NCBI GenBank assembly: GCA_027065815.1
Contig: JAMONL010000116.1
Span: forward strand, 1-40,162
Origin: Sulfurovum sp.
GTDB lineage: Bacteria > Campylobacterota > Campylobacteria > Campylobacterales > Sulfurovaceae
Direction: 5' to 3'
DNA: 40,162 nucleotides
Positions 8,450-32,102 of the stretch are shown here, piece after piece (position 1 is the stretch's first letter; each line of letters begins with the position of its first letter). Both the position numbers and the translations under genes were made by a program. The notes beneath the pieces are model-generated. The model saw nothing but the letters and a program-made list of their open reading frames with translations, searched no databases and was not told the DNA's origin.

Positions 8450-8815
8450 AAAGAGCGGGAAAATGAGATTCTTGAGCTTTCTTTTCAATTTGCTGTTCGC
8501 ATTGTCAATCTTTATAAATATTTAAGTAATGAAAAGAAAGAATTTGTTTTATCTAAACAGCTTTTGCGTTCAGGTACTTCTATTGGTGCAAATGTAACTG
8601 AATCACAAGATGCACAAAGTAAAAAAGATTTCATCTCTAAATTATCAATTTCACTTAAAGAAGCAAAAGAGACAAGATACTGGATTCTGTTGTTGATTGA
8701 AACGGATTATTTAGATAAAACCAGTATACATGTACAATCATTGCAACATGAATTAACCTCCATTATCAAACTTTTAACTGCTATTCTGATTTCTACCAAA
8801 AGTATGACACAATGA
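8444..8815 (+). CDS. Four-helix bundle protein (S23 ribosomal / 23S rRNA intervening-sequence protein family)
   Basis: FQFAVRIVNLYKYL...LSKQLLRSGTSIGANVTESQDAQSKKDFISKLSISLKEAKETRYWILLL is characteristic of the family. Start ambiguous among TTG 8441, ATG 8444, ATG 8447. Confidence 0.88.
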   Translation: MMKERENEILELSFQFAVRIVNLYKYLSNEKKEFVLSKQLLRSGTSIGANVTESQDAQSKKDFISKLSISLKEAKETRYWILLLIETDYLDKTSIHVQSLQHELTSIIKLLTAILISTKSMTQ

Positions 8816-8856: not shown

Positions 8857-9642
8857 ATGCTCCGAGTAGGAGTATTCGACTCTGGTTTGGGTGGTTTGAC
8901 GATTGTCAAGGCACTGACCGAAGTGATCAAAGGGGCAGAGATCTTTTATGTTGCTGACACTAAAAATGCACCTTACGGTGAAAAAACCCCCGAACAAATC
9001 CTCCAATACAGCCTTGATGTTACCCGATACCTTGTAGAACAACACCAAATAGACGGACTTATTATTGCCTGTAATACAGCGACATCTGCTGCCGTCAAGC
9101 AGATACGCGAAGCTTACTCCTCCTTGGTGGTCATAGGAACAGAGCCGGGGATAAAGCCGGCATTTGAACAGACGCAAACAGGAAAAGTAGGCGTGTTGGC
9201 AACACCGGCTACGTTAAAGGGTGAGAAATACCAGAAGCTTGCAAGTGATCTGTCTAAAAAGCAAGAAGTGACACTTTTTGAACAGGCTTGTCCCGGTTTG
9301 GTAGAGCAGATAGAAAAGGGTGAGATAGATACAGAAGAAACCAGAACAATGCTTGAAAACTGGCTGCGTCCTATGAGGGAATCTGATGTAGATACTATTG
9401 TACTTGGCTGTACGCATTACCCTCTTGTATCAGAGGTCATAGAACATGTGATGCAAAGAAGGTTAAATTTGATTCATACCGGAGATGCCATTGCACAGTA
9501 TTCTTTGGCCTTGAGTCAGGAATATGGACATTTAAATGAGGGAGATCTTGATCTGAAGCTTTATGCAACGGGTGAGATCTCCAAAGAGAGTGTAAAACAT
9601 ATCTTTGGAAAAGTATTGAAGGTGGAGACTATAGTCCTATAG
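8857..9642 (+). CDS. murI: Glutamate racemase
   Basis: MLRVGVFDSGLGGLTIV...YVADTKNAPYGEK...IACNTATSAA...LGCTHYPL. The ORF is open to 8812, but the 15 extra residues are encoded by the heptamer array. Confidence 0.94.
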   Translation: MLRVGVFDSGLGGLTIVKALTEVIKGAEIFYVADTKNAPYGEKTPEQILQYSLDVTRYLVEQHQIDGLIIACNTATSAAVKQIREAYSSLVVIGTEPGIKPAFEQTQTGKVGVLATPATLKGEKYQKLASDLSKKQEVTLFEQACPGLVEQIEKGEIDTEETRTMLENWLRPMRESDVDTIVLGCTHYPLVSEVIEHVMQRRLNLIHTGDAIAQYSLALSQEYGHLNEGDLDLKLYATGEISKESVKHIFGKVLKVETIVL

Positions 9643-23136: not shown

Positions 23137-23799
23137 TCAGGATTCATCATTCCCTACTATACTGGCATAGCCTGTCTCTTTCTTGATATTAATGACAATA
23201 TCGTTGATGGAAGTATTTATAAATTTAAAACGGATCGAACAATCATTGGTCATGATGGTCCGATAGTCATTTGTAGCAGTGTTATAAACCCCTTTGTGCG
23301 GTCTGCCTTTGTAATCAAATGCGATATGATTAGAAGTGTTCGGACCATATTTCGTACTGGTACATGCAGTAAAATCAACCGTATCTATCCCATATTTCTT
23401 CAGTAAAAAAATATTTGGACTTTCGTTACTGTCTATAACAGCATCATTGGAATACATAAGCTTCCCGTTGGCCGGATCTATCGTAGATTCATTCTGGTCG
23501 ACATTGGTATCATAATCTATATTTGATGAAACCGTATAAAATGAGCCATCTACCTGAAAACGTATGGTCCAAAAGCTTTTTTGCCATACTGCGCTGTTAA
23601 ATGTATGTCGGTTGTCCAGTAGAGCCAGGTGCTGCGTATAGCGTATGGCAGAGAGGATGTTGTCTGCTGCTTCCTGTCTTGTATCTCTGTCAAGTCTGGG
23701 TATGGCAAGTGCGGCCAGTATACCAAGTACAACAATGACAAAGACCAGTTCCAGCATGGTAAAAGCAGAATGGTGTGTAAATATATTTTTTCTCTTCAT
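23137..23799 (-). CDS. Prepilin-type N-terminal cleavage/methylation domain protein
   Basis: HHSA^FTMLELVFVIVVLGILAALAIPRL, class III prepilin signal with Glu+5. Confidence 0.88.
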   Translation of the reverse strand: MKRKNIFTHHSAFTMLELVFVIVVLGILAALAIPRLDRDTRQEAADNILSAIRYTQHLALLDNRHTFNSAVWQKSFWTIRFQVDGSFYTVSSNIDYDTNVDQNESTIDPANGKLMYSNDAVIDSNESPNIFLLKKYGIDTVDFTACTSTKYGPNTSNHIAFDYKGRPHKGVYNTATNDYRTIMTNDCSIRFKFINTSINDIVINIKKETGYASIVGNDES

Positions 23800-23800
23800 T

Positions 23801-24268
23801 TTATATCTTTTGTAGGGTTCGTTTGTGGTATGTCAACCATGCAGCAGTTGCATTGTCAATGTCTTTATAGTCGATATAGGTATCAACAATGATAGAAAGT
23901 GGTGACTTGGCATTAATGACACTGTTGCTCAAGGTTCTGCCTCCGCAATTACCCACTTCCTGGGCATTTCCAATGTAATTTATCTGAACCGTTGCACGAT
24001 AGCCATTTCCTGACTTAGGATCATCACCGATGGTTCCATGAATGGTATACAGACAGGTTCCTGTACCGTTACGGTCATTTGACATGACAGCCAAAACAGC
24101 ATATTCGGTATAACTTTTTGCCAGAAGCATGGCTTGTTCTCTTTGGTACTGTGCTGTAGTTGATTTAATTATTTTCCCGGACAGACTGAGGACGAATGCT
24201 GCGACCGTAGCCATCATAATGACCATAAAGATCGCGGTGATCATTGAAAAACCTGAACGTAGTTTCAT
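23801..24268 (-). CDS. Prepilin-like minor pilin lacking Glu+5
   Basis: KLRSG^FSMITAIFMVIMMATVAAFVLSLSGK; position +5 is Thr. Confidence 0.75.
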   Translation of the reverse strand: MKLRSGFSMITAIFMVIMMATVAAFVLSLSGKIIKSTTAQYQREQAMLLAKSYTEYAVLAVMSNDRNGTGTCLYTIHGTIGDDPKSGNGYRATVQINYIGNAQEVGNCGGRTLSNSVINAKSPLSIIVDTYIDYKDIDNATAAWLTYHKRTLQKI

Positions 24269-25149
24269 TAGAATACCGCCTTTTCTTTACATGCTGTGAT
24301 GCTCACATCAGAACTTATATTTTCATCTCTGCATATTTTAAATCGAATGGTATTTTCCGTACCTGTAAATTTGAAAGTGGAGATATTTTTTAACAGCAGA
24401 CTTCTACTTGCTCCGGCCAGTGAAGCTGCATGTGTAGGAGAAAAATTATAAAACAGGTACAGGTCGCACAGTTTATCGGTGGCAGGACAGATAGTACCAC
24501 TTCCGTCATTTTTTAAGGCAACCAATGCATAAGAGGTCCATGCAAGTTTATAGTGTTCAGAAAGTCTTCGGGGGACACTGCTGTGCGATAGCGTTATTGT
24601 ATTTCCAGAAACGCCAGAAATGTTATTGTCTATAGAAGTATTAGTTTCATTTGCAAAGATAATGGAACTACCAATGATGTTTCCTCCCAGGTTTGAAATG
24701 ATTGTTTGTGCCATTGCAAGATTTGATCCTGGGGTTACGATGGAATCTCTGCTTGAAGCATTGAGGTCGCAAAAACCGCTCCATCCCGGTTTTCTAGGCG
24801 TAGTTGAAGCTGAAGCAGTCGCATTGAAGCCTTCTCCGTCATAGGCGATCCATTGCAAACCTCTGTAAATATCTCCAGAGGTAGTAAGTGCTGAGGCAAA
24901 GGGTTCTGTGCTTCCATCGTCTTTGATCCTGTAAACTGTACCGGGAATGGCATACCGCAAGCGATTGGCTATTTCCAATGCTGAGAGTTCCGTTTTAAAA
25001 GAAGCTTTGTACTGCGCACGTTGTACGATATACTGTTCATATACTTTTACAATGATCTCGGAGCCGATGGAAGCGACTATTCCCAAAATAGCAATGGCAA
25101 AGGTCAACTCCAAAAGCGTATAGGCAGCCCGCATTTTTCTTTTCATCAA
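24268..25149 (-). CDS. Prepilin-type N-terminal cleavage/methylation domain protein
   Basis: RAA^YTLLELTFAIAILGIVASIGSEIIV. Confidence 0.87.
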   Translation of the reverse strand: MMKRKMRAAYTLLELTFAIAILGIVASIGSEIIVKVYEQYIVQRAQYKASFKTELSALEIANRLRYAIPGTVYRIKDDGSTEPFASALTTSGDIYRGLQWIAYDGEGFNATASASTTPRKPGWSGFCDLNASSRDSIVTPGSNLAMAQTIISNLGGNIIGSSIIFANETNTSIDNNISGVSGNTITLSHSSVPRRLSEHYKLAWTSYALVALKNDGSGTICPATDKLCDLYLFYNFSPTHAASLAGASRSLLLKNISTFKFTGTENTIRFKICRDENISSDVSITACKEKAVF

Positions 25150-25877: not shown

Positions 25878-28800
25878 TTACCATCCTAAACGCTGATTTT
25901 TCTTTTTGTTGACGGTACCGCCGACAACATGCCCTGTATCACCATGACCGGCCCAGTTACCTATTCCTATGAATCTGACGCGATAGAATGGTAATGGCAG
26001 TGTGCTTGATGCATTTAAAGGATCGTAAATAAGCCATTTGTTGGTACCTGTATCTAAATCTATGACTGTTGTCATTGGTACGGCAGCACCACTATTTTTT
26101 GTGACTGTCACGGCATTGTTGATCCCACTTCCTGTAATGCCTACATTGGCAGGAGACACTGTGGCGGCACCGGAACCTATTTTGATAGAGATATTACCAT
26201 CATTGTCTGCTGTGCGGTGGTCTGTTACGAGCCACCAGTTGGCTTCACTGGTCTGTGCATTCAAGAGAGGGAAACCTCTGTTCTGACAGTTTGTACGGCC
26301 AAGGCTACAATGAGCAACAACCGAAATAGGGGTTTGAACTAAATTTGCAGTCACATTGTCATACAATGTTTTTGAAGGCTTGGCTCTTCCGTAGAGGAAA
26401 GTAACATTTTTGTTTAAAGGTTTATTCCCTCGTACAATATAGTTACTTGTCCCTTCCGCATAAAGGTTTGATGGATTGGTTACATATGTCACATTAAAGT
26501 CATGGAATGTAATATATCTTGGTTCAAGCGGCAGGTTATTCTGACGATTAAAGTTGTACCCAAGATCCATGGTTATGGCACCGGCCATTTCTGTTTTGTA
26601 GAATGGTTTTTCCTGGTTAATACTGAAAGCTGTACTAATGCTGTTATGACTACCGGTTACCAGACCAAAACCTGAACTAGGTTTGTAAACAGTGGCAGTG
26701 TTGGAGGTGTTGACATCCTGCAGACTGTAACTCAGATATGGTGTATTGGTATTGGCAGGTTGGGCATGGTTGTACGTAAAGGAGAGTTTCATTTCAGTGT
26801 TATCTGCCCAGCAGCCTTCTGTAAAGTTTGACAATTGTCCACCTGCATAGTCAGCGGCAAAATAGGTTCCGTTCATATTGTAACTCATATTCGTATTTTC
26901 ACTTTGCAGTATGGACGGCGAGTCAATGTAAACGAATGCCTTGTTTGTTGGTCCGGAAGTTGCATTCAAACCTGTCAAATTGAATGTATACGGATAAAGA
27001 TGTGCTGTGAGATCAGTATAGGTACCGTCTGATGTCAGGTCAGATGCAATTTCACAACCGTTCACACTGCTAAGGTCAGGAGAGGAAATACCCGTTGCAG
27101 TACCTTCAGGCAATGAGACTGAACTATTGTTTGTACAGTCAATACCTTGGAGGAAATGGGCTTTAAGCTGGTGTTTCATATAGTCCGGATTCCAGTCTAC
27201 CTGTGTATACATTTTGTCCATGATGGCAAATTTGTAAATACCTATCTGGTTATGGGCAATATCAAGACCTGCGGTACCGTTAAAGAAGTGTGTGGTACTG
27301 TTTTCATCTGAAGTGTCAAGACAGTTGGTGGTGTGTGCGTCATTACTTGGTTTATCCCAAGTATACCCGATGCTTCTGTTTCCATCTTCTCCACTTGCAT
27401 CAAAATACCCAAAATAGCCGGGTACTGATGCATCAGAGGTGAAGCTGGTGGCATTAATATCCATATGGTAAGTATATCCGGCTGCAAGATTCCAGGGGTT
27501 GGTGTTATCATTATTGGTGACAAAACTTCTTTGCGAACTTAGGTCTGTCTGATTTTGGTCAGAAAGAGCGATCCTGAATGATTTTGGACGTATGGCAAAG
27601 TTGTCACGGGAACAAACAAGACGGGTATTTAAACCATATAAGCATTCCAAGCATTGAGCAACTTCTGTAAGTGTACCACTTGTTTTACATGCGCTACTAC
27701 ATTGTGGATATTTGGCTTTTGTTTCAGATAAAGTATCGATTTCCCAGCCACCACCATTTTGTTTAATTTGCATAAGGCTATTATTTGCATCATCCAAAAT
27801 GGGATAGGAGATCCTAAAGGCAACATTTTTTCTTGCTTTGTTATATATCTCTTCAGGGAGGAAAGAGGATCCCCCGGCAATCATACTTTGTGTTCTTCCA
27901 TTCGTGATAGCATTTTCAATAGCCTTGCGGTCAAACAGCGTTTTGGAATGATTAATAATAGGTATCCATATTCTTTCAGAGAGGGTATTGTCAGGTTCAA
28001 AACATGATGCATTGATATCATGGTATTTACCTGCATCAATAAGCTCTACAGCAACCATAGTTGTTACATCTTTACGTGCATCCAAGTTAGGTTCATTATT
28101 GTATGAAATAATGGCATAATCTCCAACACGTCTGACTATTTGTGTAGGTAGATCATAGATACTTTGATCAGATAGTGCTTTATCTTCAATATTAAAGATA
28201 TCATACTGTGGGAAGTAGGCATAACGGTCATTACCACATACTGTCATACTTTCCAAATAGATAGAAAGGTCATAACTGATTCCTCCAAGAAGATCCAGTG
28301 TAAAGTTCACTCTCCCATCCAATGGTATGTCAATGTTATTATTTTTCGGATCAATATCATAATCAATATAGAGTGCATCCTTGGAACCGATCTCTCCCAA
28401 TGGAATATCTTTAACAAAAGAAGGAGAAGTGGTCATAGCACTGTCATCAATATGTGTTCTCACATATTTTTTGGCATATGTTACATACGTACTTTCTGAA
28501 ATGTAAGTGGCCTGTGTCGTATTAATATCGTAAATATCAAATTTCACATCCTGCAGTGTTGCATCAGAGGCTTCTTCATTTCTTAAATAGAGCTCGACAG
28601 TGATAGGCTTACCTATTTGCAGCCTTTCTCCTCTAATATATGGCTTTTCAGTACCGTTATTGTCTTCCGAGAAGGTGATGCCGTTTTGTTTGTAAGAGTA
28701 GTCATAACAGAGTTTTGGTACATACAATTCTGCTGCAAATACCATCATGGATGGGTTCACTGTATCCAGGTTTGTTTCCCACTTGATGTTGACTGAACTG

Positions 28801-31781
28801 ATATTGGCATCATCATTTCTATAGTCTGTCATAAGACTTGAAATATTGAAGAGATCCACATCCAGACCGGCATTGTTATTGATAAGCTTATTGTTCCCTA
28901 TATCCGCACGTTTGATATTGGTTAGTTTTGCATCAAAACTGTTATCAAGAGGGTCAAGGTAGTTTGCATTGTTCGGTATGCGTCCATCAGTATATTTATA
29001 GTTGGATCCATCATCACTGAGTAACACTCTGTCGAAACGGTCAGCTTGTTGTCCCAGCGGATACTCACCTTCCCCGGAAAAGAGTGCCAAAGTTGAGTTA
29101 ATGTTCCCTGCTGCAGGTAATTTAAAGCCACTGATCGTTAGTTCGGTATCATCAACATTGGAATTTGCATAATCTCCCTCAATTTGGTCATACCCGCTAT
29201 AGACAGAAACATTACGCACTTTCCCTTTAAAGTCTTCAGCATAGATGACTACAAGAGACCAGCCACCATAAAGACCCGGATCCCGTTCCCAGCCTTCTGC
29301 AGTCGGAAGGTTGGCAACCGTAAAGGTATGGCGACCCTCTGCAGTAATATTATTTTTTACAAAATCTGTGATATCGGCATAGGCTGCATAACTGACTCCT
29401 CCATAATTTCGATTACTGTAGAGTGTCAGTGCTGTCACATCATTATAGGAGCCTGTGTCAATTTTAAGTTTGATCTTATTGGCATTAAAAGCAGCAATAT
29501 CTTGTGTATTGATATTTGGTTCAAGCGTATAGCTATTGCCATTAGTTTTACCATAACGTATGAGGCGTTCTGTCCCGGCTTCATTAAATTGGGCATCGGT
29601 AGTGTATCTACCCTGCCAGAAGAGTCCAGCCCACAATATACCTTTGTCTGCCTTGTCAAAACTATTTGGCAATGTAATGTAGGATGAGCTTGAATTCCAT
29701 GTAGAATCATCTCCGTCAATGTCAATATATTTTGTGACCCTGTCATTGGAAATAAGATTGGCATTGTCTTCACAGACACCATCAAAGTTGAGGTCTGTAC
29801 TGCTAATGCATTCAATGGTATTACCGGCGATCACGTAATTTCCTAAAACGTTTCTGGTATTTTCAGGATTGATCAGTTCAAATGGCTGGAAACCGTCTTC
29901 GAAATCCGTACTGACCGAGATCGTAATTGTACCGGTATCCTTTACACCACGGCTGTCTTCTATGGTATAGTCAAACTGAGTCTGTCCAAGGAATGTTCTG
30001 TCCGGTGTAAACGTAAAGGCACCTGTTGTGTTATTTATGGTCAAAGTTCCTCCCGGAACATTGACCGGATTTACATTTACTACCTTTATTTTATATCCTC
30101 TGTCTCTTCCGTTACCGGTATTGTCTGTCATTACATTTCCGGACAGAGAAGAATTGGTTTCTATCTGGTAACTGTTGTTCGTGGCTCTTACCGGTGGGTA
30201 TTCTACCTTCAGGTTAAATGTTTGAGATGCTGATGCCGGAGGGTAGCCATTCGCAGGATGGTCTGTGACGGTTACTGTGACAGGATACGTCTGGTTTGCA
30301 CCATCTTCGGTAGGTCGTTTTTTAATAATACCGTTTACGATCTCAATTCCCGGTGGTAAAGGTGCAGCGGCATAGGTCAGAGGATCACCGTCTTGATCAT
30401 GCCCATAACGTGTGAGGTTGTACCAGAAATATTCACCGATGTAGGCCGTTTTATCTGGGATAGGATCAAGGGTCGGAGGGTAGCTTCCGTATACATCCAT
30501 GCAAACAGTATCGGCATCTTTCCAATGCCAATAGTATTGATATCCATGTGCAGTATTACAAATATGGTTGTTTCGGATTACTTTTGCCCGAATACGAACA
30601 GTTAAGGATTGATCATTGCCATATTTCTTATGGGTATCACAGTAAACATAGGGATTGTTGTTACTTGTACGCATTTCACAGGTAGCGGAACTTTTGGGGT
30701 CATTGATGATCGTGTAGGAAATATCGGTGAATGCATTTCCTGTTGTACTCCAATCATCAGCATTGGAAATGGGGAATTTATCTCTGAGCTCCAAACGCCT
30801 GTTGAATCCACGATTGGTTACTGTAACTGTAAAGTTCACATAATCAAATAAGTCAGGTGTATTGTTGTCGACTGTTTTAGTTATAAAAACACCATTAACC
30901 CCGCCTTGTACTACAGTTACCCATCGTCTGGCTGTGTTGTTACCTGTATTGATTGTGTCAGCATGACCATTTTTATCTGTAATGACAGCAACATTTTTAT
31001 AGCTTCCCTGTTTGCTGGCTTTTGCAGTAACGGTGATCCATACTTTTTGATTTTTTTTAAAAATATGACTTCCTTTACAACTTTTTGTTGCAGTTGAGCA
31101 CGAAAAGTTATTTGTTACATCAGCTGTAATATTTACAAGTGTTAGACCCGCAGGTAAAGTATCGACAACTTTTATGGTGGAATCAGCAGGACCTTTATTT
31201 TTCGCTCTTATTCTAAAGGTGATGACTTCTCCTAGATCATATACATAATCTCCATCACCACTTTTATTTAAATATTTTCTTACTTCAAGATCAGCCCCTT
31301 GGTTTTGATCATCATTTTTAATGGTAATTTTTGTTTCAAGATCGTTATTTTTCCATATAAAATCCTGATTTGGGTTGGTGCCATTGTTGGTAAAGTCTAA
31401 ATAAAATTTTTCATTTCCTTCAACTTTTGTATCACCGTTGATCTTTACCGTGATGCTTTTAGATTTGGAACATGAACCTTTTGTAAAGGTGATATTGCCG
31501 CTTTTGGCAATGTAGTCTTTGCTTGTTCCTGCTTTGGCACTACTATTTCTGGTAGCATAGTGAATTTTGATATCAGCATTGATGGGACATTTGTCAATTT
31601 TAACAGTCAGTGTGACATTTTTTGTTCCGGAATTACCTTCCGTGACTGTTTTATCTGCTGGAACAGTGATCGTTACAATCTGCTCATCTACTTCTCCTGC
31701 CTGGAGATAAGAGATAGAGATAAACGTTAAAAAAAGTACGGGAATGAGCAATGAATTCAAAACAACTTTTAAATGTTTCAT
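25878..31781 (-). CDS. Large multidomain secreted protein (Calx-beta-like, DUF11-like, putative Ig and cadherin-like domains); candidate pilus-associated adhesin
   Basis: Start MKHLKVVLNSLLIPVLFLTFISISYLQAGEV (31781, SD AAGGTG; ORF open to 31826). VTITVPADKTVTEGNSGT (Calx-beta-like), LNKSGDGDYVYDLGEVITFRIRAKNKGPADSTIKVVDTLPAGLTLV (DUF11-like), LPPGIEIVNGIIKKRPTEDG (putative Ig), GTLTINNTTGAFTFTPDRTFLGQTQFDYTIEDSRG (cadherin-like). Confidence 0.85.
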   Translation of the reverse strand: MKHLKVVLNSLLIPVLFLTFISISYLQAGEVDEQIVTITVPADKTVTEGNSGTKNVTLTVKIDKCPINADIKIHYATRNSSAKAGTSKDYIAKSGNITFTKGSCSKSKSITVKINGDTKVEGNEKFYLDFTNNGTNPNQDFIWKNNDLETKITIKNDDQNQGADLEVRKYLNKSGDGDYVYDLGEVITFRIRAKNKGPADSTIKVVDTLPAGLTLVNITADVTNNFSCSTATKSCKGSHIFKKNQKVWITVTAKASKQGSYKNVAVITDKNGHADTINTGNNTARRWVTVVQGGVNGVFITKTVDNNTPDLFDYVNFTVTVTNRGFNRRLELRDKFPISNADDWSTTGNAFTDISYTIINDPKSSATCEMRTSNNNPYVYCDTHKKYGNDQSLTVRIRAKVIRNNHICNTAHGYQYYWHWKDADTVCMDVYGSYPPTLDPIPDKTAYIGEYFWYNLTRYGHDQDGDPLTYAAAPLPPGIEIVNGIIKKRPTEDGANQTYPVTVTVTDHPANGYPPASASQTFNLKVEYPPVRATNNSYQIETNSSLSGNVMTDNTGNGRDRGYKIKVVNVNPVNVPGGTLTINNTTGAFTFTPDRTFLGQTQFDYTIEDSRGVKDTGTITISVSTDFEDGFQPFELINPENTRNVLGNYVIAGNTIECISSTDLNFDGVCEDNANLISNDRVTKYIDIDGDDSTWNSSSSYITLPNSFDKADKGILWAGLFWQGRYTTDAQFNEAGTERLIRYGKTNGNSYTLEPNINTQDIAAFNANKIKLKIDTGSYNDVTALTLYSNRNYGGVSYAAYADITDFVKNNITAEGRHTFTVANLPTAEGWERDPGLYGGWSLVVIYAEDFKGKVRNVSVYSGYDQIEGDYANSNVDDTELTISGFKLPAAGNINSTLALFSGEGEYPLGQQADRFDRVLLSDDGSNYKYTDGRIPNNANYLDPLDNSFDAKLTNIKRADIGNNKLINNNAGLDVDLFNISSLMTDYRNDDANISSVNIKWETNLDTVNPSMMVFAAELYVPKLCYDYSYKQNGITFSEDNNGTEKPYIRGERLQIGKPITVELYLRNEEASDATLQDVKFDIYDINTTQATYISESTYVTYAKKYVRTHIDDSAMTTSPSFVKDIPLGEIGSKDALYIDYDIDPKNNNIDIPLDGRVNFTLDLLGGISYDLSIYLESMTVCGNDRYAYFPQYDIFNIEDKALSDQSIYDLPTQIVRRVGDYAIISYNNEPNLDARKDVTTMVAVELIDAGKYHDINASCFEPDNTLSERIWIPIINHSKTLFDRKAIENAITNGRTQSMIAGGSSFLPEEIYNKARKNVAFRISYPILDDANNSLMQIKQNGGGWEIDTLSETKAKYPQCSSACKTSGTLTEVAQCLECLYGLNTRLVCSRDNFAIRPKSFRIALSDQNQTDLSSQRSFVTNNDNTNPWNLAAGYTYHMDINATSFTSDASVPGYFGYFDASGEDGNRSIGYTWDKPSNDAHTTNCLDTSDENSTTHFFNGTAGLDIAHNQIGIYKFAIMDKMYTQVDWNPDYMKHQLKAHFLQGIDCTNNSSVSLPEGTATGISSPDLSSVNGCEIASDLTSDGTYTDLTAHLYPYTFNLTGLNATSGPTNKAFVYIDSPSILQSENTNMSYNMNGTYFAADYAGGQLSNFTEGCWADNTEMKLSFTYNHAQPANTNTPYLSYSLQDVNTSNTATVYKPSSGFGLVTGSHNSISTAFSINQEKPFYKTEMAGAITMDLGYNFNRQNNLPLEPRYITFHDFNVTYVTNPSNLYAEGTSNYIVRGNKPLNKNVTFLYGRAKPSKTLYDNVTANLVQTPISVVAHCSLGRTNCQNRGFPLLNAQTSEANWWLVTDHRTADNDGNISIKIGSGAATVSPANVGITGSGINNAVTVTKNSGAAVPMTTVIDLDTGTNKWLIYDPLNASSTLPLPFYRVRFIGIGNWAGHGDTGHVVGGTVNKKKNQRLGW

Positions 31782-31839
31782 AATAACACCTTTTATGCGT
31801 AAGCGGCAAAATTTTAGTAAGTACATTTAAAGAAGATGA

Positions 31840-31860
31840 CATAAGCGATCAAGGCTTATG
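31840..31860 (-). promoter_or_regulatory. Hairpin downstream of riboswitch aptamer (candidate expression platform)
   Basis: Minus strand CATAAGC-CTTGATC-GCTTATG, perfect 7-bp stem; its 5' arm overlaps the P1 3' strand CCATA. Confidence 0.6.
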
Positions 31861-31937
31861 GTTAGGCAGCTCGACTGTCTGATTCAGATTCGTTGCTTTC
31901 CGTCCCTGCTTCGCAACAGGTTTGGCTTTTCTCCATA
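31857..31937 (-). promoter_or_regulatory. Class-I c-di-GMP (GEMM) riboswitch aptamer
   Basis: Minus strand TATGGAGAAAAGCCAAACCTGTTGCGAAGCAGGGACGGAAAGCAACGAATCTGAATCAGACAGTCGAGCTGCCTAACCATA. Contains GCCAAACC, 6-bp stem with GCGA (GNRA) tetraloop, GGGACGGAAAGC, AGACAG..GAGCTGCC, and closing P1 TATGG/CCATA. Confidence 0.85.
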
Positions 31938-32102
31938 CACTATACACTACTTTACTAAATATAGCATATCTAAGATAAAATTGATATGAAATAATTATTT
32001 TTTATATCTATATGATAAAAAAATTGATAAATAGGCTTAAATGAGAACGATTTTTATCGTGAGAACTATAATTTGGCACTATTAATAGAGTTTTTACATA
32101 CT

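Follow-up and report, generated by a model that had tools for sequence, protein, structure and literature searches.

Two GEMM-I riboswitches are close known counterparts of the RNA reported here. Vc2 of Vibrio cholerae, the type example of the Rfam family RF01051 (c-di-GMP-I), is described as turning translation OFF (PMC9262584). The pilM riboswitch of Geobacter metallireducens is located before pilus genes, responds to cGAMP and switches transcription ON by means of a terminator (PMC9262584). Tandem c-di-GMP-I riboswitches are already known (PMC9481103). In Campylobacter jejuni, a 2013 transcriptome study found TPP to be the one metabolite riboswitch and cites the predicted absence of metabolite riboswitches in related bacteria (PMC3847290). 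A limited search of the open-access literature retrieved no publication that treats c-di-GMP riboswitches of Sulfurovum or the Epsilonproteobacteria.

The contig of Sulfurovum sp. analysed here (40,162 nt, hereafter the window) probably encodes a c-di-GMP-I riboswitch in the 5' leader of a putative adhesin gene and four minor-pilin-like genes, which would most likely act on translation, as an ON or an OFF switch. Judged by its sequence, the RNA is a genuine and ordinary c-di-GMP-I (GEMM-I) aptamer; it adds one more member to a class already known, joined to an uncharacterised leader. An earlier note, made from the DNA letters without database searches, had read the GEMM-I layout on the minus strand, and all the motifs that it named are found there, among them GCCAAACC, a GCGA-capped CCTGTT/AGCAGG stem, GGGACGGAAAGC and AGACAG..GAGCTGCC. 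The RF01051 search that it proposed as a check gave a significant match with cmscan against Rfam at 31936-31862 (minus strand, E 1.2e-8), with a score of 56.7 bits against a gathering score of 35 bits. This was the sole Rfam match across the window at gathering thresholds. The aptamer and its stems are as follows.

31862..31936, minus strand: c-di-GMP-I aptamer
31926 (G20), 31925 (C21), 31900 (G46), 31899 (A47) and 31866 (C92), minus strand: pocket positions
31905..31920, minus strand: P2 stem with GCGA tetraloop (motif reading and cmscan; covarying pairs by RNAalifold)
31931..31937, minus strand: P1 5' strand, UAUGGAG (folding; family-wide P1 test)
31857..31865, minus strand: P1 3' strand, CU-AA-CCAUA, overlapping the 5' arm of hairpin H1 (alignment and folding)

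The numbering of positions 20, 21, 46, 47 and 92 is taken to follow Vc2. The window aptamer resembles Vc2 in its architecture, its GNRA-capped P2 and its contact bases G20, A47 and C92, which are the same as in ordinary c-di-GMP sensors; it differs in having C21-G46 for G-C, an apparently bulged P1 and another downstream leader. The G at the ligand-contacting position 20 had been read by the earlier note. Among 128 distinct aptamers of the family, G20 is present in 127 and A47 in all. The exchange of G-C for C-G at the top of the ligand helix, previously regarded as a compensatory change, is real and fits a true fold, but it is not peculiar to the window copy: C21-G46 occurs in 126 of the 128 aptamers and G-C in two, in a sample composed mostly of the family's best-scoring sites rather than drawn at random. 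A pattern scan also detected C21-G46 in at least 114 stretches of named genomes, the matches listed including Vibrio, Photobacterium, Methylomonas, Marinobacter, many Desulfobacterota and Sulfurovum.

It is very unlikely that the ligand is cGAMP or some unknown other compound, with the RNA being a c-di-GMP-I-GGC variant or of the cGAMP type. The window aptamer has a short P1 layout similar to that of RF03167 (c-di-GMP-I-GGC), this model outscores RF01051 on it (58.6 bits) and several relatives exceed the RF03167 cut-off. However, the score obtained in a relaxed-threshold scan of the window lies under the RF03167 gathering cut-off of 59 bits, and position 47, a G in the RF03167 consensus, is A in the window as in its relatives. 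The GGC-variant reading was dropped because the window carries A47 and the G47 signature is absent. G20 likewise speaks against cGAMP, whose aptamers commonly alter the ligand-contact base (PMC9481103), although base 20 is a selectivity factor and not a hard filter (PMC9262584). Also counted in favour of a c-di-GMP riboswitch were 22 GGDEF matches in the genome of the window and the first genes by other aptamer sites, which include those for PilJ, LysM/NlpC, PAS and Ig-like proteins.

The core strands of P1 are TATGG (31937-31933) and CCATA (31861-31857) on the minus strand, and folding suggests that the stem extends inward as AG/CU past a 2-nt bulge. Family-wide, P1 is supported against partner swapping (z -5.3, 128 aptamers). 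The same test is marginal in the 18 adhesin leaders alone (p 0.06), and the window sequence by itself gives no significance against shuffles (z 0.09). The replacement of UAUGG/CCAUA by UACGG/CCGUA in two orthologues also supports P1; the orthologue G103 has P1 with a mismatch. Pairing of the P1 5' strand with the downstream GATGTACATAC motif was above shuffles, yet was discarded at p 0.17 under partner swapping. Upstream of P1, an extended -10 promoter-like sequence, TGCTATATT (31958..31966, minus strand), belongs to a TATGnTATATT-like block conserved in 13 leaders; it is missing from the output of a sigma-70 consensus scan. Transcription would be expected to start at about 31951-31949, just upstream of P1. 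A tandem repeat of TAGTGTA lies at 31949-31936 directly upstream of P1, and its second copy is absent in 12 aligned orthologues.

The remainder of the leader holds four further elements.

31840..31860, minus strand: hairpin H1, CATAAGC-CTTGATC-GCTTATG, rival of P1 (RNAalifold, shuffles, covariation)
31833..31838, minus strand: CATCTT, a possible pairing partner of the Shine-Dalgarno sequence (segment pairing -4.8 kcal/mol in the window)
31817..31826, minus strand: ATGTACTTAC, the form that the conserved GATGTACATAC motif takes in the window (in orthologues it supplies the 3' strand of H2)
31787..31792, minus strand: Shine-Dalgarno sequence AAGGTG (motif reading and alignment)

As the earlier note had observed, CATA is common to the P1 3' strand and the H1 5' arm, and P1 and H1 are therefore mutually exclusive. 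In this the locus resembles pilM, where a GEMM-I aptamer before pilus genes likewise excludes a downstream fold. RNAalifold on a first alignment of 13 leaders gave H1 along with the stems of the aptamer. With a model built on the leader's 3' part, matches were obtained in 29 of 175 family genomes, and 26 leaders including the window were aligned. In 12 other genomes the aptamer is 68-94 nt upstream of the adhesin start. H1 is more stable in the window than in its own shuffles (z -2.8). Across the 26 leaders, 91.4% of cells are paired with 13 double changes, and the covariation score was reached by none of 500 shuffles, a comparison that leaves in the shared ancestry of leaders that are not independent. 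By this comparison H1 is strongly conserved in related species.

A second pairing, H2, joins the H1 3' arm and the following CATC to GATGTACATA. Nine segment pairs were tried by partner swapping (which also leaves shared ancestry in) and shuffles, with segment borders chosen after the alignment was viewed and p values uncorrected for the number of pairs. H1 and H2 alone were conspicuous by both measures; for H2 the partner-swap p is 0.0025. Its pair counts are modest, with 30 and 68 of 500 shuffles scoring as high (344 and 170 of 500 when 13 sequences were used), and the pairing is weak in the window copy.

On the basis of these elements, c-di-GMP would stabilise P1, and P1, once formed, would prevent H1. 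The H1 3' arm and the following CATCTT would then be free to pair elsewhere, and the output step would be ribosome access to the Shine-Dalgarno site. The earlier note had instead proposed that H1 attenuates transcription and that c-di-GMP, by forming P1 and preventing H1, lets polymerase pass, probably giving an ON switch. Such transcriptional control is rather improbable. A permissive terminator pattern is matched by the window H1 (one site where 0.1 would be expected), and the Geobacter pilM riboswitch operates in this way; however, H1 is weak (-6.0 kcal/mol), only 3 T are present among the first 6 bases 3' of it, a stricter scan detected no terminator in the window leader, and leaders such as those of G112 and G087 are without a usable U-run. 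The window RNA differs from pilM in having no clear terminator, as well as in having G20. In the window, CATC separates H1 from the U-run; among the 21 of 26 leaders compared, many orthologues have a poor U-run or none. Terminator-like hairpins lie within 150 nt of the aptamer at 28 of 128 sites (22%), against 16% in mononucleotide-shuffled sequence, and 8 of the 28 overlap the fitted P1.

Because the U-run is displaced or poor in many orthologues, terminators are hardly enriched and the segment after H1 can pair with the Shine-Dalgarno sequence, the proposed ON attenuator is not supported and translational control is favoured: expression would most probably be set by how accessible the Shine-Dalgarno sequence is to ribosomes and not by intrinsic termination. 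Taken by itself, the window copy shows no significant pairing of this segment against shuffles (z -0.33). Over the family, the mean for the H1 3' arm plus CATCTT against the Shine-Dalgarno sequence is below that of shuffles, meaning more complementary. For this segment the Shine-Dalgarno sequence of the same leader is no better a partner than one from another species (p 0.21, partner swapping), so coordinated change of the two is not supported. When the bound state was modelled by adding a P1 bonus chosen by the analyst, the probability of H1 in the window fell from 0.99 to 0.01, and Shine-Dalgarno accessibility was unchanged (0.50 against 0.47). With binding so modelled, accessibility drops sharply in G116 and G087 and barely moves or rises in the others.

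Because c-di-GMP commonly increases adhesins and pili, an ON response is given slightly better than even chances. An OFF response is weighted at a little under even, since several orthologue models hide the Shine-Dalgarno site more when bound. More tentatively, a conserved terminator-free platform of the Sulfurovaceae, in which one segment moves among H1, H2 and the Shine-Dalgarno sequence, could place adhesin/minor-pilin operons under translational control by c-di-GMP.

The earlier note had placed the aptamer in front of a giant-adhesin/prepilin operon, and the genes downstream agree with this.

25878..31781, minus strand: putative giant adhesin, 1967 aa
25146..25877, minus strand: prepilin-like protein, 243 aa (N-terminus PA-IAMIELIF by eye; no Pfam/NCBIfam match)
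24268..25149, minus strand: prepilin-like protein (N_methyl)
23801..24268, minus strand: GspK-like minor pseudopilin, 155 aa (weak NF037980 match, far under cut-off)
23137..23799, minus strand: prepilin-like protein, 220 aa

The adhesin start is placed at 31781, backed by the Shine-Dalgarno sequence AAAAGGTG and a signal-like N-terminus, and not at the ATG at 31826 given in the open reading frame list. The protein matches Calx-beta, DUF11, Big_9 and cadherin-like domains, from which its putative role as an adhesin is read. The four prepilin-like genes are closely spaced behind it, two of them identified by weak matches or by eye.

Most orthologous leaders retain the aptamer, and that of the window is complete at 56.7 bits; it is thus highly improbable that the switch is decaying or that the 3' part of the leader works without an aptamer. 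What favours such a reading is that some other leaders have aptamers reaching just 39-41 bits, and that two leaders, in G136 (L321) and G030 (L331), keep the 3' part with no c-di-GMP-I family aptamer at E up to 0.1. Given these two leaders without a reported aptamer, the 3' part may serve a separate function. The adhesin-type gene is also kept in both. Elsewhere, the adhesin aptamers at L080:3640-3885 (G070) and in the G128 leader (L316) carry an insertion of about 190 nt in the P3 loop. In G070 the insertion is flanked by the inverted repeat GATCTGAGTGGTGG / CTACCACTCAGATC, its 3' part is nearly identical in G128, and a group II intron match is located about 0.8 kb upstream.

If the proposed riboswitch is correct, a marine chemosynthetic group has its surface-adhesion and pilus genes under direct c-di-GMP control through an RNA. 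The genome of the window contains 7 c-di-GMP-I aptamers. At least one is present in 106 of 175 genomes of the family, and in 43 of 397 genomes (13 of 68 genera) of a phylum sample. The maximum of 21 per family genome contrasts with the TPP-only record of C. jejuni. Within the genome of the window, an aptamer on contig C39 (L041:7123-7201) has C at position 20 (ATACCCCAAACC), unique among the 128 aptamers, and sits 27 nt upstream of a gene beginning MSSSLDKLRALTSRLEEKL. On contig C164, a 1.7-kb stretch holds three aptamers (L038:7275-7352, 8668-8747 and 8884-8964), of which two form a tandem; the three precede paralogous lipoprotein-like genes and adjoin exopolysaccharide-type genes.
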